Below are positions 12,769 to 25,005 of a stretch of DNA of 64,000 nucleotides, piece by piece. The position numbers were made by a program, and so were the translations under genes. Origin of the DNA: Saccharomonospora cyanea NA-134 (GTDB taxonomy: Bacteria > Actinomycetota > Actinomycetes > Mycobacteriales > Pseudonocardiaceae). The stretch lies in NCBI RefSeq assembly GCF_000244975.1, contig NZ_CM001440.1, positions 1 through 64,000 on the forward strand. Direction: 5' to 3'. Each line of letters begins with the position of its first letter. Positions within the stretch are counted from its first letter, which is position 1. The notes under the pieces are model-generated. The model was not told where the DNA came from. It was given only the letters and a program-made list of their open reading frames with translations, and did not search any database.

Positions 12769-12805
12769 GGGGCGGTTGACTTGTACAGGTCAACCGCCCC
12801 TTTTT
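12769..12805 (+). terminator. Rho-independent terminator after tRNA-Ile
   Basis: A perfect 12-base stem, GGGGCGGTTGAC (12769-12780) with GTCAACCGCCCC (12789-12800), an 8-base loop, then TTTTT (12801-12805). It ends transcription of the tRNA and possibly of the upstream block. Confidence 0.95.
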
Positions 12806-12964
12806 GTCTGACCGGATCCGTCCCGCCGGAGTCTGAGCCGTCCGCTCTCGTTTCCGCTCCCAGCCGGAGAACTACTCCGTGGTTCCGTGGCTTCCGGTGT
12901 GCTCCCTCTCCTTCGTGGTCTTCCGCTGGTGGCGAGTGTTGCGAGCCCCCTCTCAATACAGATA

Positions 12965-12982
12965 TTTTAGCTTATGCTGAAA
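12965..12982. promoter_or_regulatory. Palindromic operator upstream of the MarR-like regulator
   Basis: TTTTAGC (12965-12971) and GCTGAAA (12976-12982) form a near-perfect inverted repeat around TTAT, in an A/T-rich patch 20 bases before the regulator's start codon. Position and symmetry suggest autoregulation. The binding protein is inferred. Confidence 0.6.
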
Positions 12983-13002
12983 CAACTGTAAGGAGAGTGT
13001 GC

Positions 13003-13476
13003 ATGGCCGAGCGGGAGACGTTGCTGGAGTGGGCGGAGCAGGTCTCGATGTACCTGGCACGCGATGGTGTGCCACCGATCGCCGGGCGGGTGCTGGGATG
13101 GTTGATGGTCTGTGACCCGCCGGAGCAGTCCGCAGGACAGATCAGCGCCGCCATCGGCGCCAGCCGAGCCTCGTTGACTTCGAACCTGCGGGTGCTGTCC
13201 AGCATGGGATTTCTGACCAGCAGAACCCGGCCGGGTGAGCGGACGGTCTACTACCGGATGGCGGAAGGCGCCTGGGCTGGCGTGGTCCGCAGGCAGCTCG
13301 CGAGCATCACCTCGTTCCTCGACATCACCGGCAGGGGGCTGGAGCTGGTCGGTCCGGACGGGGACCGGGCCGCGCGCGTTCGCGAGGCACACGCCACCTT
13401 CGAATGGATGGCTGGGGTGTTCGCCGACGCGCCACCGCCACCCGCCCCGGGCTCGGCAGACGGGGAGGCGGTATGA
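13003..13476 (+). CDS. MarR/GbsR-type winged-helix transcriptional regulator
   Basis: A 157-residue DNA-binding protein. Residues about 25-95 form a winged helix with recognition segment AAIGASRASLTSNLRVLSSMGFL followed by a wing RTRPGERTVYYRM; the C-terminal part is helical and ends in a proline-rich tail, as in GbsR/PadR-like regulators. ATG 13003 has AGGAG 7 bases upstream. Its stop overlaps the ATG of the FAD monooxygenase (ATGA), so the pair is translationally coupled. The regulator probably controls both genes through the palindrome at 12965-12982. The ligand is unknown and is presumably the monooxygenase substrate. Confidence 0.85.
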   Translation: MAERETLLEWAEQVSMYLARDGVPPIAGRVLGWLMVCDPPEQSAGQISAAIGASRASLTSNLRVLSSMGFLTSRTRPGERTVYYRMAEGAWAGVVRRQLASITSFLDITGRGLELVGPDGDRAARVREAHATFEWMAGVFADAPPPPAPGSADGEAV

Positions 13477-14627
13477 CCAGGGATGCGATCGTGGTCGGCG
13501 GCGGCATCGGCGGGCTGGCCGCCGCGTTGGCCCTGCACCGGATCGGCTGGCGTGCCACCGTGCTGGAGCGCGCCCCCGAGGCGGGTGAGATCGGCGCGGG
13601 GATGTCCCAGTCTCCCAACGCCCTGCGAGCGCTGGCCGAACTCGGTGTCGAAGAGCGGGCGCGGTCGGTCGGAGTGCCCACCCACGCCTCGGGCAACCTC
13701 CGGCTGCCCGACGGCCGCTACTTGCAACGCGCGTGGCCCAACGACACGACCGCGCTGGTGGCCTACCACCGGGCGGACCTGCATCGGACGCTCCTCGACG
13801 CGCTACCCGCAGGCTGGGTGCGCACCGGCTCAGAGGTCACCGCGATCCGGCAGGACGGCGACTCGGTGACGGTCGCGTGCGGTGAGACCGAACTGAGCGC
13901 CGAGCTGGTCGTCGCCGCGGACGGAATCCGCAGTACCGTCAGGGGACTGCTGTGGCCGGACGCACCGCCACCTCGTTTCCTGGGCCGCACCGCATGGCTG
14001 GGCATCGCCGAGATCGCCGACCTGCCCGGCAGCATGACGCTCGGCCCGGAAGGCTACTTCCTCATCCACCCGATCTCCCGAGGCCGTGCCTACTGGGCCC
14101 ACGTCGCCACCGCCGACGAGCCCGGTGTCCGCTACGCCGGGGAGAAGGCCGAGGTGGTCCGCAGGGTCGCCACCTGGCACGAGCCGATCCCGCAGTTGAT
14201 CGCCGCCACCCCGGACGAGCGGATCATTCACATCGACATCCACGACCTGGACCCGTTGCCGACCTACGTTCGAGGCCGGGTGGCGCTGCTGGGCGACGCC
14301 GCGCACGCGATGAGCCCGGATCGCGGTCAGGGCGCAGGGCAGTCGATCGAGGACGCCGTCGTGCTCGCCGCGGCCCTCGCCGACGAACCCACGATCGCCG
14401 CGGCCCTCGCCCGCTACGATACCGAGCGTCGCCCGCGAACCCAGGCCACCGCCAGGGGCGCCCGCGCGGACGGCCGACGCACCACCTCCAGAGCCGCGCA
14501 CCGGGTACTGGTGACCATGATCCGGCTGATGCCAGCGGCCCTGTGGCGCAAGGGCATCGCCCCGGAGGGCAACCCCACCTGGCGCTGGCAGCCACCCCAC
14601 CTGAGAGCACCGGACCGCCCTCACTGA
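13473..14627 (+). CDS. FAD-dependent aromatic-type monooxygenase
   Basis: Group A flavoprotein monooxygenase of the salicylate/p-hydroxybenzoate hydroxylase family (384 residues). The N terminus has the FAD-binding GGGIGGLAAA (about residues 8-17). The second FAD motif GRVALLGDAAHAMSP lies near 270, followed by GQGAGQSIEDA, both diagnostic of this family. Such enzymes use NAD(P)H and O2 to hydroxylate aromatic or polyketide-like substrates, or to inactivate antibiotics such as tetracycline or rifamycin; the substrate cannot be told from sequence. It overlaps the upstream regulator by 4 bases, forming an inducible two-gene detoxification or catabolic unit. Confidence 0.87.
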   Translation: MTRDAIVVGGGIGGLAAALALHRIGWRATVLERAPEAGEIGAGMSQSPNALRALAELGVEERARSVGVPTHASGNLRLPDGRYLQRAWPNDTTALVAYHRADLHRTLLDALPAGWVRTGSEVTAIRQDGDSVTVACGETELSAELVVAADGIRSTVRGLLWPDAPPPRFLGRTAWLGIAEIADLPGSMTLGPEGYFLIHPISRGRAYWAHVATADEPGVRYAGEKAEVVRRVATWHEPIPQLIAATPDERIIHIDIHDLDPLPTYVRGRVALLGDAAHAMSPDRGQGAGQSIEDAVVLAAALADEPTIAAALARYDTERRPRTQATARGARADGRRTTSRAAHRVLVTMIRLMPAALWRKGIAPEGNPTWRWQPPHLRAPDRPH

Positions 14628-14757
14628 GCCGGGCGTCGTCACGGGAAGCCGGCCGTCAGTCGCAGGCGTGATCCTGGCAGCGTTGCAGTTCAGGCGCATC
14701 CGCCGCGGGTAGTAGTCCCTCGGGACAGCTGGTGACCTGGGGCGAGGAGGTGGGGTG

Positions 14758-15821: not shown

Positions 15822-15894
15822 GGGGCTGTAGCTCAATTGGTAGAGCGCCGCTTTTGCAAGGCGGAGGTCAGGGGTTCGATTCCCCTCAGCTCCA
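15822..15894 (+). tRNA. tRNA-Ala (TGC)
   Basis: A complete 73-base cloverleaf: acceptor GGGGCTG pairs with CAGCTCC, anticodon TGC at 15855-15857, T arm GGGGTTCGATTCCCC, discriminator A at 15894. An integrase remnant starts only 87 bases downstream, so the 3' end of this gene is the likely attachment site of an integrated element. Confidence 0.97.
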
Positions 15895-15980
15895 CAAGGT
15901 TTAACCAGGGAAAACCCCTCAGATTCTGCTCATGAGTTCCGAGGTCTGACAGTCATTGTGACTGCGAGCACCCTACGGAC

Positions 15981-16826
15981 ATGGCCAAGGCTGGGGGCGG
16001 GCGTAAGCGTTCGCGAGGTCAAGCACCGTCGGCCACCGGGTCGCCCGCCGGCCGGTGGCTACCCGCCACACGACTGCGTCGCAGTCGGCTGTGTGGTGAA
16101 GGAGTGTCTGCCGCACGAGTGCAAGCCGCTGGACAACGCAACGATCTCGAAGATTCACTTCATGCTGAGCGGGACGTTCTCGGCGGCCAAGCGGTGGGAC
16201 TGGATCGACTCGACCCCGGCGGAGGAGGCGAGGAAGCCGCGGCAGTCGGCGCCGCAGCCGGCACCGCCGAGCGCCGAGCAGGCGAGCTGGATCATCGAGG
16301 CGGCGTGGGAACAGGACGAGAGCTGGGGCACGCTCGTCTGGCTTGTCATGGTCACCGACATGCGCCGCGCCGAGGTGCTGGCGCTGCGTGAAGCGACGTC
16401 GACTTGGCCGGTGGCTACATCTCGGTACGCCGCAACTACGTCCGCGTCGGCGGCCGCTCTGTCGAGAAGCAGACAAAGACTCACCGCATGCGGCGGGTCT
16501 CTCTCGATCCGTCCACCGTTGAGGTCTTGCAGGAGCACCGCGAGCAGTACGAGGACGCGATGCGGCAGCTCGACGTCGAGCCGACCGACGAGGCGTTCCT
16601 GTTCTCGTATGAGCCGACCTTCAACCGCCCGTACGACCCGAGTGGAGTGACGCACCGCTACGCCCGCATGTGCGCCGGTCGCCTCGGCCACGCCGGCGGC
16701 GGAGCTACCACGTTGCGGGTCTATGCCGCGTGGGTCGGTGAGGCCGACCGGCGAGCCGCCCATATCCTCGGCGGCCGCCTTCGTCAGCCGAAGCCGTCAA
16801 CAGAGCCATGCAACGAAACACTTTGA
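15981..16826 (+). pseudogene. Degenerate tyrosine-recombinase integrase
   Basis: The remnant begins at ATG 15981 with MAKAGGGRKRSRGQ, a typical start of actinobacterial tRNA-targeting integrases, then shifts to another frame. That frame encodes HECKPLDNATISKIHFML and, further on, LVMVTDMRRAEVLAL, which carries the catalytic arginine box. A second frameshift near 16392 leads to DVDLAGGYISVRRNYVRV and the C-terminal GRLGHAGGGATTLRVYAAW with the nucleophilic tyrosine region. Between YARMCA and GRLGH the stretch of about 25-30 residues that normally carries the HxLRH box is missing. Intact relatives have about 390 residues. With two frameshifts and two deletions the enzyme cannot be active. Confidence 0.85.
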
Positions 16827-17486
16827 GGTCGTGCGCCGAATACCAGGTATGAATAGCTCCCGGTCGAAGAAGCCTCGTCGGCGGAGGTTTTCGACGAAGT
16901 CGTGGCACAGCTCAACGCACTGGATCGCGCTGTAAGGCAGGCTGGACCGCACCGGGTCCCACGCGTGCGATCAGTGACGCGCTGCCCGGCCAGCTCGGCG
17001 ACCTCCCCGGAGCCGACATCGCTCGTCTGCTGGGCATCCTGACCGACGAGGGTTTGCGGCTCGCCGTGCCGTTGGACCCCGGGGCGTTTGTCGTATGTGC
17101 GACTGTATGCAGCCCAGTTCGGCCGTATGCGGCGGTTGTGGGCCAGCGTTGCGGTGGCGGACCTTGGCGGCAAGGTGACGGCTGAAACACAAGGGGACGC
17201 CCTGCCAGTGTTTCAGCCGTTCTTGGTGACTGGTGCGACATAGCGAGTGTGGGAAGTGACAGGGCGATGGGGGTGTCACTCTGCTGTCACAGCTGCTTCC
17301 GCAGGTCAGGCTGGGCAGCGGCCAGTTGTTGCGGGTTCTGGCGTGCGAGCGCGGTTCTCCTGGTGCGATCTTGCCGCCGATAACGAGCGAGACCGGCTGG
17401 TGTGGGTGGCTCTGGGGCGTGTTCGGTGTTTGACTCGTGGGCGCAGGTGACGTGTCCGGCGACGGGCGAACTGGAAGGTGACTGGG
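16827..17486. other. Degenerate spacer inside the island
   Basis: No intact gene is visible. Two short stretches have protein-like composition but lie in different frames: about 16973-17090 (GQLGDLPGADIARLLGILTD) and about 17090-17243 (LYAAQFGRMRRLWASVAV, ending at TAG 17241). They look like one decayed gene with a frameshift, of unknown identity. A repeat GTGACA...TGTCAC occurs at 17254-17278. The last 250 bases hold nothing recognisable except the ribosome-binding GGAAGG (17473-17478) of the next gene. Confidence 0.5.
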
Positions 17487-18995
17487 GTGTCGGCGGCAGT
17501 CGAGGTGCAGGGGCCGGCGTGGTGCGAGCCTGGCCTGGACCTACGCGGTGGGCGTTATCCGCTGTCGGTGGAGGCGCCGGTGATGGCGATGGTGGACACG
17601 CTGGTGCCAGGTGTGTCGACGTTGACGCAGTTGGTGCGTTACTACGGGTTGTACTGGGCATTGTCCGGCTTCGCGGATGAAGAAGGTCTCGATCGCGCCG
17701 CGTGTCAGATGTTGGTGCGGCGTGCGGAAGTAGGGCTTGCGCTGGTGTCGCGAAAGCATGACACGCGGCGGCAGGCGCACGGCTTGGATCGGGTAAAAGC
17801 CCTCGTAGACCAGGGCACGGTCGATGGGGCAGCTGAGCTGGGTCGAGCTTCGTACTCGCCGCGACCATGGGGGTTCTGGTCCCAGTACGGCGGGCCCAGC
17901 ATGACGCTGGGCACGGTACGAGTGGATGGCGGTGCCTTGCGGCCGGGCCGGCATCCCTGTCCTCCGGTGGTGCTGCAGCTGTTCCAGCCGCTCCTGGACA
18001 TCGCTGTCAAGCGCAAGTCGCCTATGAACGCCGTCGAAGAGCTTGCCGTGCTCGCATTGGACACGCTGGCTACACCAGACCTGGGGCCACTCGGCGGGCT
18101 GTTCACCGCGACGCGTGCCGGAGTTCATGATCCGGACGAGTGGACCGGCGACGATCACACGCGCCGAGCCACGTTGCGGATTCTGGCGCGAGCCGTGCAA
18201 CTGTGTCCGGAAGCCGAGCGGTGGACCGATGCGCTTCACGCCTGTGTGGCGTACGGCGATGCCGTCAGCGCCGATCCGGTGCTGGCCGACGAGGAGCGCG
18301 CTCTCGCGTGGCGCGGCGTGTTGCTGCGGCATTGGTCTGTGGGTGCGTGGCGGCGGCTCTGGGCCGCCCTGGTGGATCAGGTTGTCCGCGTCTCGGGCTC
18401 GGTCGCCCGTGAGGACCTGTACGACTGGATCAGCAGCGAGGCGCCGGCGGGGACGGTGCGCGACTTCGTGGCGGACTTCCCGCGCACGGTGAACCAAAAC
18501 GGCCATCCACTGCCCGCGGAGCAGCAGGTCCGTGACGAGTGGACACCGGTGGAAGCCGACCTGGCCGTGCTCCTGCTTGGCGGGATCCGCCGAGACCAGC
18601 TATCCGGACACTGCTTGCTGGCCTTCCTGAACCGACGTTCCCGCGGACGAGGGCAATTCCTGGACCCGAGCTGGGTCGCCTACCGGCACCGTGAGCACAT
18701 CGACCGCCCCGTGGCGGAGCTCGCTCGCGCGTTCGTCGATGACATGCTCGCCCAGTCACGGCGGGTGGCCTTGCGAAAGATGAGAGTGGACAACGACGGC
18801 AGGATGACGTTGTTCAGTAAGCTGCACGAGCGCAACGGCCGTTATTTCGCCGACCGTGCCGAAGGTGCGAGCAATGTGGGGTTGCGCATCGAGCAGCTCG
18901 GAACCATGGCCGAGCAACTCGATCTCTTCACCACCGAGTCAGGCCAGTTGGCGGTCACCGCGTGCGGCGTCGAATGGTTGGCGCTACCCAAATGA
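17487..18995 (+). CDS. Hypothetical protein, first gene of a two-gene unit with a PLD-motif protein
   Basis: A 502-residue protein I do not recognise. It has no signal peptide, no membrane segment and no Walker or HxK motif that I can see. The N-terminal third contains the hydrophobic segment TQLVRYYGLYWALSGFADE and the positively charged LVRRAEVGLALVSRKHD. The middle is mainly helical in character, and the C-terminal part (TLFSKLHERNGRYFADRA near 440, then LRIEQLGTMAEQLDLF) looks like a compact helical domain. The start GTG 17487 has GGAAGG 8 bases upstream; GTG 17478 is an alternative. The stop overlaps the next ATG (ATGA), so the two proteins are probably made together and may form a complex. 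It lies in the tRNA-Ala island, a typical setting for defence genes. Confidence 0.8.
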   Translation: MSAAVEVQGPAWCEPGLDLRGGRYPLSVEAPVMAMVDTLVPGVSTLTQLVRYYGLYWALSGFADEEGLDRAACQMLVRRAEVGLALVSRKHDTRRQAHGLDRVKALVDQGTVDGAAELGRASYSPRPWGFWSQYGGPSMTLGTVRVDGGALRPGRHPCPPVVLQLFQPLLDIAVKRKSPMNAVEELAVLALDTLATPDLGPLGGLFTATRAGVHDPDEWTGDDHTRRATLRILARAVQLCPEAERWTDALHACVAYGDAVSADPVLADEERALAWRGVLLRHWSVGAWRRLWAALVDQVVRVSGSVAREDLYDWISSEAPAGTVRDFVADFPRTVNQNGHPLPAEQQVRDEWTPVEADLAVLLLGGIRRDQLSGHCLLAFLNRRSRGRGQFLDPSWVAYRHREHIDRPVAELARAFVDDMLAQSRRVALRKMRVDNDGRMTLFSKLHERNGRYFADRAEGASNVGLRIEQLGTMAEQLDLFTTESGQLAVTACGVEWLALPK

Positions 18996-21598
18996 GCGAG
19001 GCGCGCTACGAATTCCACTCACCACTCACACTGCTGCGGCAGTGGCGCGATCGCAATGACGGCGCACCACTGCGGGAAGTGCTGATCACCGGCTACACGC
19101 TGGACCTGGTTTTCCTGGAACGGCACTGTGTGTCCACCGCACGGGCGTTGGGCGCCCGGATCACGGTGCTCGGCGACGCCCACCAAGCTGTGCACGATCC
19201 GGTCGACGTGCGGCACGCTGGTCGCACCTACCAGCACGGCTACGCCCACTGCGGCGGCGCGTTTCACCCCAAGCTCGTGATCCTCGCGGGCGACGACGAG
19301 GTATGGGCGGCGATCGGATCCGGTAATCCCACCATGTCTGGCTGGGGCCACAATCACGAACTCTGGCTCGTACTCCGTGCCTCCCGAGGCCCCGGACCGG
19401 TGGCGCTGCGCGATCTGGCCGGCTGGCTTGCCGACCTACCACAAGTGGTGGCCATGCCGTCGTGGATCGCCGAGACCCTCGAGCATGTCGGCCATACGAT
19501 CGCCCCAGCCGAGACCGATGGCTCGCTACCTCGCCTGCGGGTGTTCGGCAACCTTCGGCGGAGCCTGATCGAGCAGCTACCGGCGACACCCGTGGCGTCG
19601 TTACGAATGACGGCGCCGTTCTTCGACGCCCAGGCTGCTGCGGTGCAGGCCTTGATCGCACGGTTCGCCCCCGACCAGGTCACGCTTGCCGTGCAACCCA
19701 ATCTTTCCCAGTACGACGGCCGCGCACTCGACCACGCCAGCGCCGCCGTGCCCCGAACAGAGTTCCGGTTCCTGGGAGAGGACCGCACCCGGCACGGCAA
19801 ACTGGTCGAATGGACCGCCAACGGCGATACCACGGCGCTGGTCGGCAGCGCGAACCTCAGTGCCGCGGCTATGCTCACCACCACTGCCGCAGGCGGCAAC
19901 TGCGAGCTGGTGGTGTCCTATTCGGTGGCGGGCAGCCTCCTGCCCGACGGCGCGCGCGTCGGCCGAGCCGCGCTCGTCACCCGCAACACCATCCCCGCAG
20001 AACCTTCTGATGCCCGTGCTGCCGCCCTGACCGTGTTCGGCGCTCGCCGCTTACCTGATCTGATCAGGGTGGAGCTGGCCACTACCACACGCCAGCCGAT
20101 CACCATCGAAACTTCACCAGATGGCACCCCCGACACCTGGATACCGGCGCACGTCGTCACCGCCGACGCCAGCACACCCATGACCGTCGAGTTCCGGGTG
20201 CCTGAACAGCTCGGCGGAGCTGTGCGCGCCTGGGCCAACGTTTCCGGCACTCGCATCATCTCCCCGGTTGTCTTCCTCACCGACACCAACCGCTGCCTCC
20301 CCCGCGATGAGCGCCCGGACCAGCCCAAACTCATCCGCAACTACGAACTTGACGAGGTGATCACTGACCCAGTGCTGGCCAGCCGATTTAGCGCCGACTT
20401 TCTCCGCCTACTCAGCCAGATCAAAGAACGCCGTGCCCCGGTAGCGCCGCTGTCGAAAAACATAGCCGTCAAGTCCAGTGCAGTGGGTGACGATCGATGG
20501 AGCATATGGCTGGACCGCGTCGAACGAACCCTTGGGCCGTCGCTGACCAACCTCGTGTTCCCCGGTGTGGTCATTACCCTCCCCGCCGACACTGCAACAG
20601 GCTGGACCGTCGGCCCCGAAGCCGACGAAACTGAACTCGCCGACGACGAAACCGACGAGATCCTCGACGACCTCGCTACCGACAGCCCCACCACGAGCGC
20701 CCCGCTCGTGCCGCCATCCCAACGCCAGAAGTGGCGCACCACGATGCGCCGACTCTGCCACGCCGTCCACAGCGAACCACCGCCGCCGCTCGAAATGCGC
20801 ATGACTGTTGCCCGTCTCTACGTCGACCTGCTCGCTGCCGGCATCTGGGGAACCGACCAGACCTGGCGTGCAGATCTCCGCGACATCATCCGATCGCTCT
20901 CACCATCCGACGACGAATGCCGCACAACACCCAGCCAGGCGCTGAGTTTCATGAGCTCACTCACCGCCGTCTGCCTCACCCTGTTGTGCCAGGACGCCAA
21001 CCTGCACGGCGGCACCGAACACGATCTCATCGCGAAGGCCGCATGGAACAGCGCCCGCGAATGGGTGCCTTTCGCCGAACCCGAACTCGTCGAGAACTAC
21101 CTTTATCTCCCCAACCAGCCCTACGCGCGAGTCGCGAGCCACGCCGAGGTCACTGCCCTTATCGAGCTCGCTACCGCCGCGGCGGACGATCCCCACGCCG
21201 AACTCCGTGCTGCCTTCGAAAACGAAGGACTGGCCGTCCAACACATCGACAGAGTTTGGGTAGCCGACGGCCAGTTCCACAACCCGCGCCGTATCGCCGC
21301 CCGTATCGCCACCCTCGCTGGCCCGCATTGTGTGGTGCTCGCCCGCAACGACCGCAGAGCAAGCCTCATCCTGCGGGAGAACGCCACCGTGGTGATTGCC
21401 GAATCCACAGCACCGCGTTGGAGGACCTACCGCCTCACTCCACTAGGCACACCACTTTCCCTGCTCGCCGGTGACGAAGGACTTCCGAGTACCCGCTGCA
21501 CCCATCCACTCCAACCGGTGCCTGACCACGTCCGCAACCTGGCCCACAACGCGCAGGTCAACCTTCCACATCTGATGGCCGCTCTCCACGCCAAGTGA
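18992..21598 (+). CDS. Large protein with two PLD-superfamily HxK/GSxN motifs, possible nuclease
   Basis: An 868-residue protein. Two half-sites of the phospholipase D fold are visible: His92-x-Lys94 followed by GSGN (109-112), and His268-x-Lys270 followed by GSAN (285-288). The usual Asp five residues after the Lys is absent in both (Ala and Thr instead), as in some nuclease-type members. The first 330 residues are therefore probably a bilobal PLD catalytic domain acting on DNA or RNA phosphodiesters. A beta-rich region follows (about 340-430). An acidic linker (TELADDETDEILDDLATD, near 550) precedes a C-terminal domain of about 290 residues that I cannot assign. No helicase, methylase or ATPase motif was seen. 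ATG 18992 overlaps the upstream stop. A restriction or abortive-infection role is inference. Confidence 0.8.
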   Translation: MSEARYEFHSPLTLLRQWRDRNDGAPLREVLITGYTLDLVFLERHCVSTARALGARITVLGDAHQAVHDPVDVRHAGRTYQHGYAHCGGAFHPKLVILAGDDEVWAAIGSGNPTMSGWGHNHELWLVLRASRGPGPVALRDLAGWLADLPQVVAMPSWIAETLEHVGHTIAPAETDGSLPRLRVFGNLRRSLIEQLPATPVASLRMTAPFFDAQAAAVQALIARFAPDQVTLAVQPNLSQYDGRALDHASAAVPRTEFRFLGEDRTRHGKLVEWTANGDTTALVGSANLSAAAMLTTTAAGGNCELVVSYSVAGSLLPDGARVGRAALVTRNTIPAEPSDARAAALTVFGARRLPDLIRVELATTTRQPITIETSPDGTPDTWIPAHVVTADASTPMTVEFRVPEQLGGAVRAWANVSGTRIISPVVFLTDTNRCLPRDERPDQPKLIRNYELDEVITDPVLASRFSADFLRLLSQIKERRAPVAPLSKNIAVKSSAVGDDRWSIWLDRVERTLGPSLTNLVFPGVVITLPADTATGWTVGPEADETELADDETDEILDDLATDSPTTSAPLVPPSQRQKWRTTMRRLCHAVHSEPPPPLEMRMTVARLYVDLLAAGIWGTDQTWRADLRDIIRSLSPSDDECRTTPSQALSFMSSLTAVCLTLLCQDANLHGGTEHDLIAKAAWNSAREWVPFAEPELVENYLYLPNQPYARVASHAEVTALIELATAAADDPHAELRAAFENEGLAVQHIDRVWVADGQFHNPRRIAARIATLAGPHCVVLARNDRRASLILRENATVVIAESTAPRWRTYRLTPLGTPLSLLAGDEGLPSTRCTHPLQPVPDHVRNLAHNAQVNLPHLMAALHAK

Positions 21599-21795
21599 TA
21601 TCGATCTTGAGAGTGCCTTCGTTCGCCGGATGCGGCGGGCGTGGGGCCAGGCGTCGCGTGAGGTCGGTGTGTTGCTCCTCGAAGGCGATGGGGCTGCAAA
21701 TGCGAACACTGAGCGACACAGAGATGGGACCGGCCAGAGAATGGTCGGCCCCGTCCCCCACCACTGTATGTGGCGGACGTTGCGGGCGGTTGCCC

Positions 21796-22045
21796 TTATT
21801 CGTTTCTATCGCGCCACTGGCCTCGGCTCCACCAGCTGTCGGTGTCGGGCAACACCTGCCCTTGCGTGGCGGCCAGCAACGCCACGGCGAGCGCGCAACT
21901 GCGCTGGGTTCAAACCTGCGTTGGCGGGTATCCCGTTGAATTCCAGTTCGCCTTTCTTGTGGACGCGCGCCTAGGACTCTCCCCGGATAATCCATGCCTC
22001 GTCGATGGGGTGCCGCTCCGACAACTCCGATACGAACGTCGTCAT
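21796..22045 (-). pseudogene. Broken small gene of unknown function
   Basis: Read on the minus strand from ATG 22045 the frame gives MTTFVSELSERHPIDEAWII, meets an in-frame TAG after 24 codons, then continues with protein-like sequence (HKKGELEFNGIPANAG). After a frameshift it ends with LAVALLAATQGQVLPDTDSW and a run of polar residues before TAA at 21796. The three pieces would join into a single protein of about 85 residues. Identity unknown. The nonsense codon plus frameshift indicate a dead gene. Confidence 0.45.
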
Positions 22046-22194
22046 GGTCGAGCACAGTAGAGGAGTTTGGGCGAGCCGCTTATCAGCGGCGTGTGATCCG
22101 CAGCGATGGATGCCGGTTTCCGATGGTCATTTTGGTCTGCTGACGTCGAGCAAGAACGGTCTGATATTGGTACTGGGACTGAATTCGGAGGCTT

Positions 22195-22385
22195 CACGTC
22201 GCAGCTCCGCCATCAGCGAGTGGCGGCCGCCGCGATCCTTTCGCCTGGTCCACGCGCTCGGGAGCCACCTGGTCGGCGGGCACCACCTTCGCGTACTGAC
22301 TACCGTCGGCGTGCACGAGGGTTCTCGCCGAGGATTCACCGTCGCCGACCTCGTTCCAAACCCTTTCGTCCCAGGGGTTCAGCAG
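22195..22385 (-). pseudogene. Fragment resembling the N-terminal part of an aminoglycoside phosphotransferase (tentative)
   Basis: On the minus strand one frame reads NPWDERVWNEVGDGESSART followed by LVHADGSQYAKVVPADQV, which resembles the beginning of APH(3')-type kinases, where a G-x-S strand precedes the ATP-binding lysine. There is no start codon in a suitable place, and the frame stops after about 60 residues, before any catalytic H-G-D motif. If the identification is right this is a dead resistance-gene fragment. The call rests on short similarity recalled by eye. Confidence 0.3.
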
Positions 22386-22581
22386 TGCAGGTGCGGCTCA
22401 TGCGCTCGGACTCGTTCTCCCGCGTTGAGCTCGTTGCCGCCGTCGGGTGGGTTCGCCAGGCGGGTGCACCGAAATCTCGTGCGAGAGCCTGGGCGCGTCG
22501 TGAGGGGTTGCATGGCGTGGGCGGATGCCTAGGGGATGACCCAGCGGCGGCGGCCCGCACTGTCCTGGGCCCCGAGTGTCG

Positions 22582-23229
22582 TCACGCCCCGCGGTGCGCG
22601 CTCGTTGCCCCTGACGGTCGTAGGCCGGGCTGGGTAACGAGTGCGTCCCAGCTGCCCATGGCGGCGTCGACGATGGTGTGTGCCTGTGTGCGGGTGCAGC
22701 CGTCGCGGGCCTGGATGGAGATGCCGTGCAGCACGGTCTGCACGTAGAGCGCGGCCCCGGCCGCGTCTAGACCCGCGGGCACGTCGCCGTCGGCGATGCC
22801 GCGTTCGATGCGAGCCTCGATCTTGGCCCGGTCACGGTTGCGGCGTTCGGCGAGTGCGCGGCCGACGTCATCATGGGCCGCGCCGAGATTGAGTGCGGAG
22901 AGCACGATCATGCAGCCCGGCGGTGTCGTCGGGTCCGTGTAGGCGTCGGCGTTGCCGCGCAGGAGTGCCTCGATGGCAGTGCGGGTGGGCGTGAGGGCGA
23001 GTGCGTGGTCGGTGGGCGTGGTGCCGGGAGCGTCGTAGAGCTCGATGGCCTCGTCGAAGAGCTCGTTCTTGGAGCCGAACGCGGCGTACAGGCTCGTGGG
23101 GGTAATGCCGAGCTCCTGGGTGAGCATCGCCACCGACACACCCTCGTAACCGCGACGCCAGAACAGTTTCATCGCCGTGCGTAGCGCCGCGTCGCGATCG
23201 AAGGCGCGTGGGCGGCCTCGTGTCGCCAT
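22582..23229 (-). CDS. TetR family transcriptional repressor
   Basis: A 215-residue regulator. The N-terminal helix-turn-helix (about residues 10-55) contains AALRTAMKLFWRRGYEGVS and the recognition helix TPTSLYAAFGSKNELF; the remainder is the helical ligand-binding domain, with a Cys in TTPPGCMIV as in TetR_C-like subgroups. It is divergent from the dehydrogenase/SMR operon, and a perfect 13-base-arm palindrome lies between them, so it most likely represses both directions until an inducer binds. The ligand may be a toxic carbonyl or cationic compound, judging from the regulated genes. Confidence 0.9.
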   Translation of the reverse strand: MATRGRPRAFDRDAALRTAMKLFWRRGYEGVSVAMLTQELGITPTSLYAAFGSKNELFDEAIELYDAPGTTPTDHALALTPTRTAIEALLRGNADAYTDPTTPPGCMIVLSALNLGAAHDDVGRALAERRNRDRAKIEARIERGIADGDVPAGLDAAGAALYVQTVLHGISIQARDGCTRTQAHTIVDAAMGSWDALVTQPGLRPSGATSAHRGA

Positions 23230-23279
23230 CTGGGTGAGCCTCCTTGCTTGTCGTCGGCAACGTACCTTGCTTATTCGAG

Positions 23280-23315
23280 AGCGATCACTACATAATATCC
23301 AATGTAGTGATCGCT
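23280..23315. promoter_or_regulatory. TetR operator, perfect inverted repeat
   Basis: AGCGATCACTACA (23280-23292) and TGTAGTGATCGCT (23303-23315) are perfect inverted arms around TAATATCCAA. The spacer and flanks are A/T-rich, so the operator overlaps the likely divergent promoters. The inner arms ATCACTACA/TGTAGTGAT are typical TetR half-sites. Confidence 0.85.
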
Positions 23316-23351
23316 ACAGAATTCAAGAAGGTCATGGATGTGGAGGACGCG

Positions 23352-24092
23352 ATGGGCCCGTTGACTGGTAAGACCGCCCTGGTCACCGGAGGTAGCCGGG
23401 GAATCGGGGCGGCGATAGCGGCACGCTTGGCCGGCGACGGTGCCCGCGTGGCGCTGACCTACCGTTCGTCTCCGGACCGGGCGACCGGCGTGGTGGAGAG
23501 GATCAAGGCGGACGGCGGCACGGCGATCGCCGTGCCGGCCGCCATGGAGGACCCGCAGCAGGTTCGGGACGCCGTCGCAGCGACGGTGGAGGCATACGGC
23601 GGGCTGGACGTCGTGGTGAATAACGCCGGCGCCTTCCCCACCGGCGTCATCGACGAGTTGACCCTGGCCGACTTCGAGCATGCCGTGGCGATCCATGTCC
23701 GGGCCGTGTTCGCAGCCGTGCACGCCGCGCTGCCGACCATGGGCGCGGGCGGCAGGATCATCAGTATCGGGAGCAGCCTCGTCGAGCGGGTGCCCGGTCC
23801 CGGGATCAGCCTGTATGCGATGAGCAAGTCCGCCCTGGTCGGGTTCACCAAGGGCCTGGCCCGCGACCTGGGCCCGCGTGGGATCACCGCCGTCGTCGTC
23901 CATCCCGGGTCGACGGACACCGAGATGAACCCGGCCGATGCGCCCGAGGCCGAGGCCGAGCGTGCGATGACCGCGCTGGGGCGCTATGCCACCACTGACG
24001 ACATCGCCGCGCTTGTCGCGTACCTCGCCGGGCCGGGTGGTGCCTACATCACTGGCACCACGATCACCGTCGACGGCGGAGCCACGGCATGA
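23352..24092 (+). CDS. Short-chain dehydrogenase/reductase
   Basis: NAD(P)-dependent SDR of classical length (246 residues). It has the cofactor motif TGGSRGIG (residues 12-19), NNAG in VVVNNAGAFPTG, the catalytic Ser in ISIGSSL and the YxxxK motif as YAMSK, and ends with GTTITVDGG. The residue after the second strand (TYRSS) suggests NADPH preference. ATG 23352 was chosen for the family-typical start; GGAGGA ends 4 bases before it. ATG 23334 is an alternative. The substrate is unknown. The stop overlaps the first SMR gene (ATGA), so reduction and efflux are co-regulated by the TetR. Confidence 0.9.
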   Translation: MGPLTGKTALVTGGSRGIGAAIAARLAGDGARVALTYRSSPDRATGVVERIKADGGTAIAVPAAMEDPQQVRDAVAATVEAYGGLDVVVNNAGAFPTGVIDELTLADFEHAVAIHVRAVFAAVHAALPTMGAGGRIISIGSSLVERVPGPGISLYAMSKSALVGFTKGLARDLGPRGITAVVVHPGSTDTEMNPADAPEAEAERAMTALGRYATTDDIAALVAYLAGPGGAYITGTTITVDGGATA

Positions 24093-24511
24093 GTCCCGGA
24101 GAGAGCCGTCGACCACAGGCGCCTCGTGTCGTGGTCGCGGCTTGGAGTCTGGTTCTGGCGGCCGCGGGGCTGGAGATCTTCTGGGCGCTCGCGCTGACTG
24201 CGTCCGAGGGCCTGAGGCATGCGGGCTGGGCAGTTCTTGGAATCGCGATCGCGATCGCGAGCCTGATCATGCTCACTCGCGCGCTGCGGATACTGCCGCT
24301 GGGCACCGCCTACACCGTGTGGGTCGGCCTTGGTGCGGTCGGTGTCGCCGCCGCCGGTGCGCTCGTCCTGGACGAGCCACTTACCTGGCCCCGGGCAGCC
24401 TGTCTGGCCCTGATCATCGGCGGCGTCGTCGGACTCGCTAGGACCGACACCCCGCGGAAACCAAGGCAACAGACCGCCGTGCGGATCGAGGGCGGGGGTG
24501 GTGGGGGCTGA
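24089..24511 (+). CDS. Small multidrug resistance (SMR) transporter, first of a pair
   Basis: A 140-residue inner-membrane exporter with four helices. The first has the essential Glu in GLEIFWALAL (near residue 28) and the third the conserved LGTAYTVWVGLGAVG. It has extra tails: about 17 polar residues at the N terminus and a basic, glycine-ending C terminus, longer than the usual 105-110. Paired SMR genes usually encode heterodimers (EbrAB, YkkCD-like). It overlaps both neighbours by 1-4 bases. Likely substrate: cationic or guanidinium-type compounds. Confidence 0.9.
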   Translation: MSPGESRRPQAPRVVVAAWSLVLAAAGLEIFWALALTASEGLRHAGWAVLGIAIAIASLIMLTRALRILPLGTAYTVWVGLGAVGVAAAGALVLDEPLTWPRAACLALIIGGVVGLARTDTPRKPRQQTAVRIEGGGGGG

Positions 24512-24828
24512 TGGCCTGGGCACTCCTAATCCTCGCCGGGCTGTTAGAGATCGCCTGGTCGTACGCCTTGAAGAAGGCCGAGGGACTGCGCGAACCCGGC
24601 TGGGGCATCACCGGGATCACGCTGGCGATTTTGAGCCTGGTCCTGCTGTCACTCGCACTCCGGGAACTGCCGGTCGGAACCGCCTACGCGGTGTGGGTGG
24701 GCATCGGTGCCGTCGGCGTCGCCCTCACCGGCATCATCGCTTTCGGTGACAGGGCCACGCCACCACGCCTGGCCCTCCTCGCCGCGATCCTCGCCGGCAT
24801 CGTCGGCCTCAACCTCCTCGGCGGTTGA
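24511..24828 (+). CDS. SMR transporter, second of a pair
   Basis: A 105-residue four-helix exporter with LAGLLEIAWSYALKKAEG at the N terminus (essential Glu at residue 13) and VGTAYAVWVGIGAVG in helix 3. The helix 1 pattern with W and K resembles the SugE/Gdx guanidinium-exporter branch, while EmrE-type members have a different spacing. The start ATG overlaps the previous stop (TGATG), so the two subunits are probably produced in equal amounts as a heterodimer. Confidence 0.9.
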   Translation: MAWALLILAGLLEIAWSYALKKAEGLREPGWGITGITLAILSLVLLSLALRELPVGTAYAVWVGIGAVGVALTGIIAFGDRATPPRLALLAAILAGIVGLNLLGG

Positions 24829-25005
24829 TGTGGCCGTGAACGGTCGAGACCGCGGGCGGGCGTCCCAGGTGAAGCTGGGTTCATCGCCGACATAGAGGCT
24901 CACCCGCTTGCCAGGGCACCCCGCGGTGTCGCGTTCGTTTCGGCCGTCACGCCGCGGGTAGCTCGTACGAAAGCACTCGGCCAGCGAGGAGAGCCTGGAG
25001 GCGTC

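Follow-up and report, generated by a model that had tools for sequence, protein, structure and literature searches.

A two-gene unit encoding a phospholipase D superfamily protein in Saccharomonospora cyanea NA-134, a probable defence nuclease related to Azaca

The gene pair, its active site and its conservation

The stretch analysed here (the window) is 64,000 nucleotides of contig NZ_CM001440.1 of Saccharomonospora cyanea NA-134, whose genome is a single contig of 5.41 Mb. It carries two adjacent genes, A and B, whose products appear to be related to ZacA and ZacB of the defence system Azaca; the system reportedly consists of ZacA, ZacB and ZacC and is said to have been described by Millman and colleagues in 2022. 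An earlier note, made from the sequence alone, had described two genes joined by an ATGA overlap, and both are indeed open frames. The features of the pair, including the phospholipase D (PLD) half-sites of B, are as follows.

17487..18995, + strand: gene A, GTG start, 502 amino acids, ZacA-like N-terminus (PGxSTxTxxRYY)
18992..21598, + strand: gene B, 868 amino acids, PLD-superfamily protein, ZacB homologue by sequence profile
18992..18995, + strand: ATGA overlap of 4 bases, stop codon of A and start codon of B
19265..19360, + strand: first PLD half-site of B (H92, K94, G109-S110-G111-N112, N121, E123)
19793..19906, + strand: second PLD half-site of B (H268, K270, G285-S286-A287-N288, N303, E305)

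An overlap of at least one base is present in 25 of the 29 A-B pairs measured, some of the start codons in these measurements being our own choice. The G+C content at third codon positions is 78% in gene A and 76% in gene B versus 92% in gyrA, which is in keeping with import. Neither protein contains a long hydrophobic segment, and about 560 residues of B that lie C-terminal of the PLD part match no recognised domain. No significant relative came out of sequence searches of the PDB, whether A, B or either family profile served as the query; one match was at chance level (E 0.21).

Members of the PLD superfamily carry two half-sites, each made of an HxK motif, a serine, an asparagine and a downstream acidic residue. 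B has both half-sites and scores 29.2 bits against Pfam PLDc_2 (cut-off 27), which places it in the superfamily. The motifs picked out in the earlier note, H92/K94/GSGN109-112 and H268/K270/GSAN285-288 with the usual aspartate absent, are as they were read. Since Nuc and other PLD nucleases rely on this histidine, lysine and asparagine together with a downstream glutamate, the missing aspartate is no sign that B is inactive, and both half-sites look complete, as each is followed by a conserved asparagine and glutamate (N121/E123 and N303/E305).

Ten residues (H92, K94, S110, N112, E123, H268, K270, S286, N288 and E305) are invariant in all 36 full-length B proteins of our alignment, from which we omitted L051, a duplicate, and the copies that are incomplete or broken (L053, L054, L055, L058, L059, L060 and L061); N121 is kept in 34 of the 36 and N303 in 35. 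The same ten are found in nine of ten further family-level copies; the contig of the tenth (L135) ends after the first half-site. They are also kept in the B protein of L131, and in that of L130 a threonine replaces the serine of the first half-site. The expectation that the PLD residues would be conserved among homologues is borne out by the aligned proteins and fails in one genus-level subgroup of five genomes.

In this genus (g297, loci L149-L153), B has lost both half-sites: HKSNE/HKSNE has become LRSDG or similar, and the second HxK region is deleted. A is shorter, and the frames are open in the parts covered, which for B amount to about the first half of the protein. Judged from their sequences, these could be pseudoenzyme pairs kept for a non-catalytic role. 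Naturally dead and still conserved, they constitute a built-in control for the role of the catalytic site. Two further proteins gave matches to the B profile. A product of about 1024-1043 amino acids, distinct from B and encoded near two pairs (L055:14009-17083 and L056:14383-17514), matched with E values of 4.5e-7 and 4.2e-4 and apparently contains a PLD part as well. The match of the L028 DrmD-like helicase was weak (0.007).

The test that the earlier note had set, conservation of the two genes as a pair in other genomes, was passed at every level searched. Among 298 order-level genomes, B is present in 16 and A in 12, and B adjoins A in all 12; in G289, B runs off its contig and the other half is on a second contig. 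The four order-level genomes that have B and lack A contain broken or contig-edge copies of B only: it is split into two frames at a contig end in G163, has an internal loss in G192 and is reduced to just its last ~320 residues, with one stop, in G215 and G223. The B profile matched six of 346 phylum-level genomes, with A adjoining B in all six. In 297 family-level genomes the A profile matched 22 places in 21 genomes, and B follows in 20 of the 22, a count that includes the five catalytically dead copies and five counted previously; the two places without B are short fragments of A. The pair of G069, which belongs to another genus, is full length and without stops, and its A and B are 62% and 60% identical to those of the window. 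No intact B lacking A was seen among the copies inspected, and a constant third gene, sought beside the pair, was not found.

More distant copies of B were also examined for a neighbouring A. Twenty candidate proteins from 19 loci were compared with a profile built from 20 actinobacterial A proteins. In the first pass, 16 of them matched at E < 1e-3, L029 at about 1e-3 and L129 at 0.02, the two pieces from L117 gave no match, and none of 208 other neighbouring proteins matched at E < 1. In the second round, scored prior to their inclusion, L029 reached 1e-39, the two L117 pieces 2e-16 and 2e-10 and L129 4e-9, the best negative being at 0.08. All 20 are A homologues; they come from Actinomycetota, Pseudomonadota, Bacteroidota, Myxococcota and Halobacteria. 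At L117:6410-7959 (Roseomonas) the annotation shows the A homologue in two parts, as frames of 405 and 107 amino acids. A and B are likewise adjacent in all 12 further loci from outside the profiles, including L130 (Cupriavidus), L131 (Novosphingobium) and L132 (Rhizobium). The order is B-A in four records (L118, L127, L128 and L132).

Plasmid records with the pair come from Streptomyces, Mycobacterium, Miltoncostaea, Polaromonas, Roseovarius, Sphingopyxis, Sphingobium, Roseomonas, Rhizobium, Undibacterium, Myroides, Prevotella and the haloarchaeon Halobaculum, while the Anaeromyxobacter pair is from a genome contig. Nine of 14 plasmid records with similarity to B were inspected, and records retrieved with distant B queries were inspected as a selection; the evidence for Pseudomonadota, Bacteroidota and archaea is made up of plasmid records picked by their match to B, and that for Myxococcota of one contig.

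Pairwise distances between A proteins correlate with those between B proteins (r = 0.96, 35 pairs; incomplete L053, L061, L117 and L128 and duplicate L051 omitted), and none of 2000 permutations gave a value as high, the maximum being 0.32. The correlation reflects joint inheritance, not contact. We conclude that A and B form a real family of gene pairs whose occurrence is not due to chance.

So tight an association might be that of an abortive, toxin-antitoxin-like unit, in which B would be a toxic phosphodiesterase and A an inhibitor that releases B upon infection. The translational coupling of the two genes, the restriction of B without A to damaged or contig-edge copies in four order-level genomes and the coincidence of a shortened A with a catalytically dead B in g297 are all in line with this. 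However, A, with about 500 amino acids, is large for an inhibitor, and any obligate complex would give the same pattern. We consider such a unit distinctly unlikely and prefer to regard the pair as a defence module related to Azaca.

Relation to Azaca and to other known systems

A PLD-like domain is listed for Azaca in a passage of PMC10952713, and a passage of PMC12926258 lists Azaca among systems of unknown mechanism. The PADLOC model of ZacB matches B of the window with 43.3 bits and 18 of 19 B family members, the best at 3.2e-17. When the family-wide B profile was aligned with four ZacB proteins by hhalign, the probability was 99.1 with an E value of 1e-18 over 439 columns. By these profile matches B is clearly homologous to ZacB.

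The relation of A is more restricted. ZacA itself may correspond to the family DUF6361. The PADLOC ZacA model matches nine of 20 A family members (best E 1.8e-5), and A of the window is not among them. The claim that the first gene resembles nothing known thus holds for the window sequence taken alone and fails for its family. Alignment of the A profile with four ZacA proteins by hhalign gave a probability of 89.1 and an E value of 2.3e-6 over 83 N-terminal columns of 514, and two of the four reached 2.8e-7 and 3.2e-6 in hmmsearch with the A profile. A ZacA profile matched 13 of the 20 A members, again at this N-terminal position, with weak E values (0.015 to 0.35), A of the window again being unmatched, and matched none of 1000 shuffled A sequences. 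From these matches, A is probably a ZacA relative, the remainder of which has diverged beyond recognition.

For comparison, canonical Azaca loci were considered in the same phylum. The PADLOC ZacA model matches seven of the 346 phylum-level genomes, and four of the seven loci were inspected. Three of them have ZacA, ZacB and, third in the row, a helicase-like protein of about 1045-1101 amino acids, which was called a helicase by eye and blast rather than with the ZacC model; in the fourth, the contig ends after ZacB begins. The A-B pair has the gene order of ZacA-ZacB in these three loci and differs from them in size and extent of similarity: B has 868 amino acids versus 608-618 for ZacB (three complete copies) and can be aligned over about its first half, while A has 502 versus 398-413 for ZacA and can be aligned at the N-terminus only. 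The pair also differs in that no ZacC helicase is found beside it. A tblastn search with the three ZacC-position proteins found no ZacC around 25 pairs, including window positions 5001-34000, and gave local helicase-motif matches in L028, L056, L061 and L095 only; the absence is less sure in L053, L062 and L029, where the stretches are short or reach a contig end. The same part of the window contains no helicase match and no frame with Walker A and B motifs.

The pair could be an ordinary Azaca that has lost its ZacC or is served by a ZacC encoded at another place in the genome. The relationship to ZacA and ZacB and the gene order agree with this, and in eight of 16 genomes, the source genome among them, some proteins match the ZacC profile in part. 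Yet these matches span 38-207 of its 1019 positions, as those of generic helicases would, ZacC was found around none of the 25 pairs, and the PADLOC model matches ZacA of the three same-phylum canonical loci much more closely (E 1e-74 to 1e-134) than it matches the A family. Since the canonical proteins score so much better, the pair looks like a separate branch and not like the product of a recent loss of ZacC, a judgement made from profile scores and not from a tree; ordinary Azaca is a very unlikely explanation. Sequence comparison indicates instead that the pair is a variant of the Azaca kind that consists of two genes, lacks the helicase and is in some cases attached to larger systems.

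Other systems with PLD proteins were compared as well. All 19 B family members match PDC-M27B of the multi-gene PADLOC candidate PDC-M27. However, window B matches over only 36 residues, those surrounding its first HxK; at E <= 10 the PDC-M27 models find none of the A members, and no helicase match lies beside the window pair, so that the partners of PDC-M27 are lacking. DISARM DrmC, NgoFVII, Dpd and BrxL-HKD proteins share the PLD superfamily active site with B; passages of PMC12458937 and PMC12839542 deal with such PLD/HKD nucleases in YprA and BREX systems. Against the NCBIfam DrmC models B scores at best 15.1 bits, the cut-off being 133, and the Pfam NgoFVII score is 17.8 bits versus a cut-off of 23.8. 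DrmC, the example given in the earlier note, is not the nearest relative. An origin from DISARM was rejected on the DrmC score and on the lack of a helicase match or Walker A and B frame at 5001-34000; the DrmA/DrmB helicase and DUF1998 genes with a methylase that define DISARM were not found at the window pair. Neither protein was found to belong to a non-defence family, though both turn out to be related to the described Azaca system, B clearly to ZacB and A at its N-terminus to ZacA. Among the matches listed in a search mainly of the open literature we found no published account of the A-B pair, which does not establish its absence from print.

Genomic neighbourhoods and the possible role of the pair

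Genes of many defence systems were found near copies of the pair. Within ~50 bp lie a type III Mod (L042, where Res is also present), a DrmD-like helicase (L028) and BrxC/PglY (L052). The Myroides pair (L119) is located inside a type I restriction-modification (RM) operon, flanked by its S and R genes, and that of L116 follows a Zorya set by ~350 bp. Beside the pair are also a type I M-S-R set with RhuM and a PD-T4-6-type kinase (L027), a kinase and a DruE-like protein (L050), a neighbour with a partial GajA match (L062) and a weakly matching Nhi/AbiO-like neighbour (L048). DrmD-DrmMI is divergent to the pair at ~0.8 kb in L061, DNA methylases are ~2 kb away in L120, and AbiEii genes are near the pair in L122 and L123. 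In L117, genes that we take to be Qat-like are followed about 1 kb on by the split A. CATRA, CHAT or NACHT genes lie near three Streptomyces copies, while the helicase, AAA, patatin or Sir2 genes near L118, L124 and L125 are of ambiguous meaning. Three of nine later loci matched defence queries: L159 (kinase and type I R), L161 (SNF2 protein) and L163 (methylase). When ten neighbouring proteins were run against PADLOC, a set that excluded the neighbours of L053, L063 and L093-L096, six had a match at E <= 1e-5 and the other four had none. The annotation of L045, L047, L121, L126, L127, L128, L129 and L132 shows no clear defence neighbour. At L028:12680-18087 and L056:28-5321, an SNF2/DrmD-like helicase is followed by a partner of 659-778 amino acids beside the pair, the two partners being 35% identical.

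One can imagine from such neighbours that the pair is a plug-in effector, that is, an accessory nuclease module on translocase systems (type I and III RM, BREX, DISARM, Zorya and Druantia) that would borrow the helicase and target recognition of its host system, lone copies being stranded. The position of the Myroides pair, the close spacing to BrxC, DrmD-like, Mod and Zorya genes and the presence of helicase genes matching our query set near 11 of 25 pair loci speak for it. However, the partner system varies by locus, and the other 14 loci, including the window and three Streptomyces plasmids, gave no helicase match with this query set, although a DruE-like stretch was afterwards found in L048, one of the 14. 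Besides, the plasmid relatives L127, L128 and L129 are without an annotated defence neighbour, and L121 has only a UvrD-type helicase, ~3.4 kb away. A plug-in effector of this sort is rather unlikely in our estimation.

The reverse proposition is that the pair has no part in defence and serves conjugation, competition or lipid metabolism, as a plasmid or island pair whose link to defence genes is a passive one. Several copies are indeed on plasmids near transfer genes, and the window copy has no recognised defence neighbour. This is countered by the homology of B to ZacB, by the many unrelated defence systems next to pair copies and by the absence of long hydrophobic segments from A and B; moreover, profile searches revealed no relatives of A or B in viral contigs and none of B in a phage collection. 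We regard a role outside defence as highly improbable.

We favour, with slightly more belief than doubt, a mobile two-gene defence module that would descend from the ZacA-ZacB half of Azaca or from a common ancestor of both. The proposal of the earlier note, a compact system for defence or nucleic-acid processing, is still the best reading of the sequence, while the novelty then suggested is reduced by the relation to Azaca. The pair is probably a defence nuclease, an activity that we infer from the active site of B. A and B may form a complex in which A, by means of its ZacA-like N-terminus, would sense invading or damaged nucleic acid and restrain B; upon activation B would cut DNA (or RNA) via a phosphohistidine, as PLD nucleases do. 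Unlike in Azaca, the motor step would either not be needed or be supplied by the helicase of a neighbouring system.

Several observations weigh against this reading. The homology of A to ZacA is confined to about 80 N-terminal residues; two of the four ZacA proteins matched the A profile at 0.0082 and 0.02, barely better than the best of 1000 shuffled ZacA sequences (0.043), and a smaller, first A profile gave a weak result (probability 17.8, E 0.0014). PLD chemistry would equally fit lipids or other phosphodiesters, and a pure nuclease does not explain the open yet catalytically dead pairs of g297. No recognised defence gene lies beside the window pair, and the defence neighbours of other copies are an association without a background rate and not a tested enrichment.

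The distribution of the defence module also allows a bolder view, which we offer tentatively and with considerable doubt: the pair may be a widespread, portable sensor-nuclease immune cassette that works without a motor of its own and has time and again become attached to, or inserted into, translocase systems of unrelated kinds, serving them as a shared backup effector. It would then extend over no fewer than four bacterial phyla, one halophilic archaeon and type I and III RM, BREX, DISARM, Zorya and Druantia. Should the pair indeed dock onto many systems, immune systems that are otherwise unrelated would have an effector in common. A helicase-less relative of Azaca would isolate the sensor-nuclease half of that system, so that the roles of ZacA and ZacB could be tested with two genes.

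The insert beside tRNA-Ala

In the window, the pair is part of an insert bordered on the left by a tRNA gene.

15822..15895, + strand: tRNA-Ala (anticodon TGC), left border of the insert
15909..24919, no strand: insert of ~9.0 kb carrying the A-B pair, absent from two same-genus genomes
15958..16826, + strand: decayed stretch, earlier called an integrase, two overlapping frames, no Pfam match
22582..24828, both strands: other cargo, namely a TetR regulator (- strand), a short-chain dehydrogenase (+ strand) and two small multidrug resistance-family proteins (+ strand)

The tRNA-Ala island proposed earlier is real. Seven same-genus genomes were compared, and two of them lack the insert cleanly: in G632, window position 15908 joins 24920 with only 38 unaligned bases between, and in G637, position 15899 joins 24972. 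The remaining five have different DNA after tRNA-Ala, and the A-B pair is present in one of 12 genomes of the genus. The dead integrase of the earlier note could not be confirmed, both fragments (~15958-16826) being without a Pfam match at E <= 0.01; at the same tRNA, G639 carries DNA that is 81-85% identical to two parts of this stretch. A copy of the tRNA end at the right border was not found with up to 3 mismatches allowed, and direct repeats at the insert were not convincing among the families listed (20 of 48).

A second variable spot was seen between tRNA-Ile and 14.6 kb (window 12802-14643), where none of the seven relatives has DNA similarity passing the cut. Beyond tRNA-Ala (window 15896-49000), long similarity to the relatives resumes at 24.9, 24.9, 35.3, 39.4, 43.9 and 46.6 kb, and for one of the seven it never resumes within the DNA compared. 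Since the points of resumption differ from relative to relative, the DNA after tRNA-Ala looks like a genomic hotspot.

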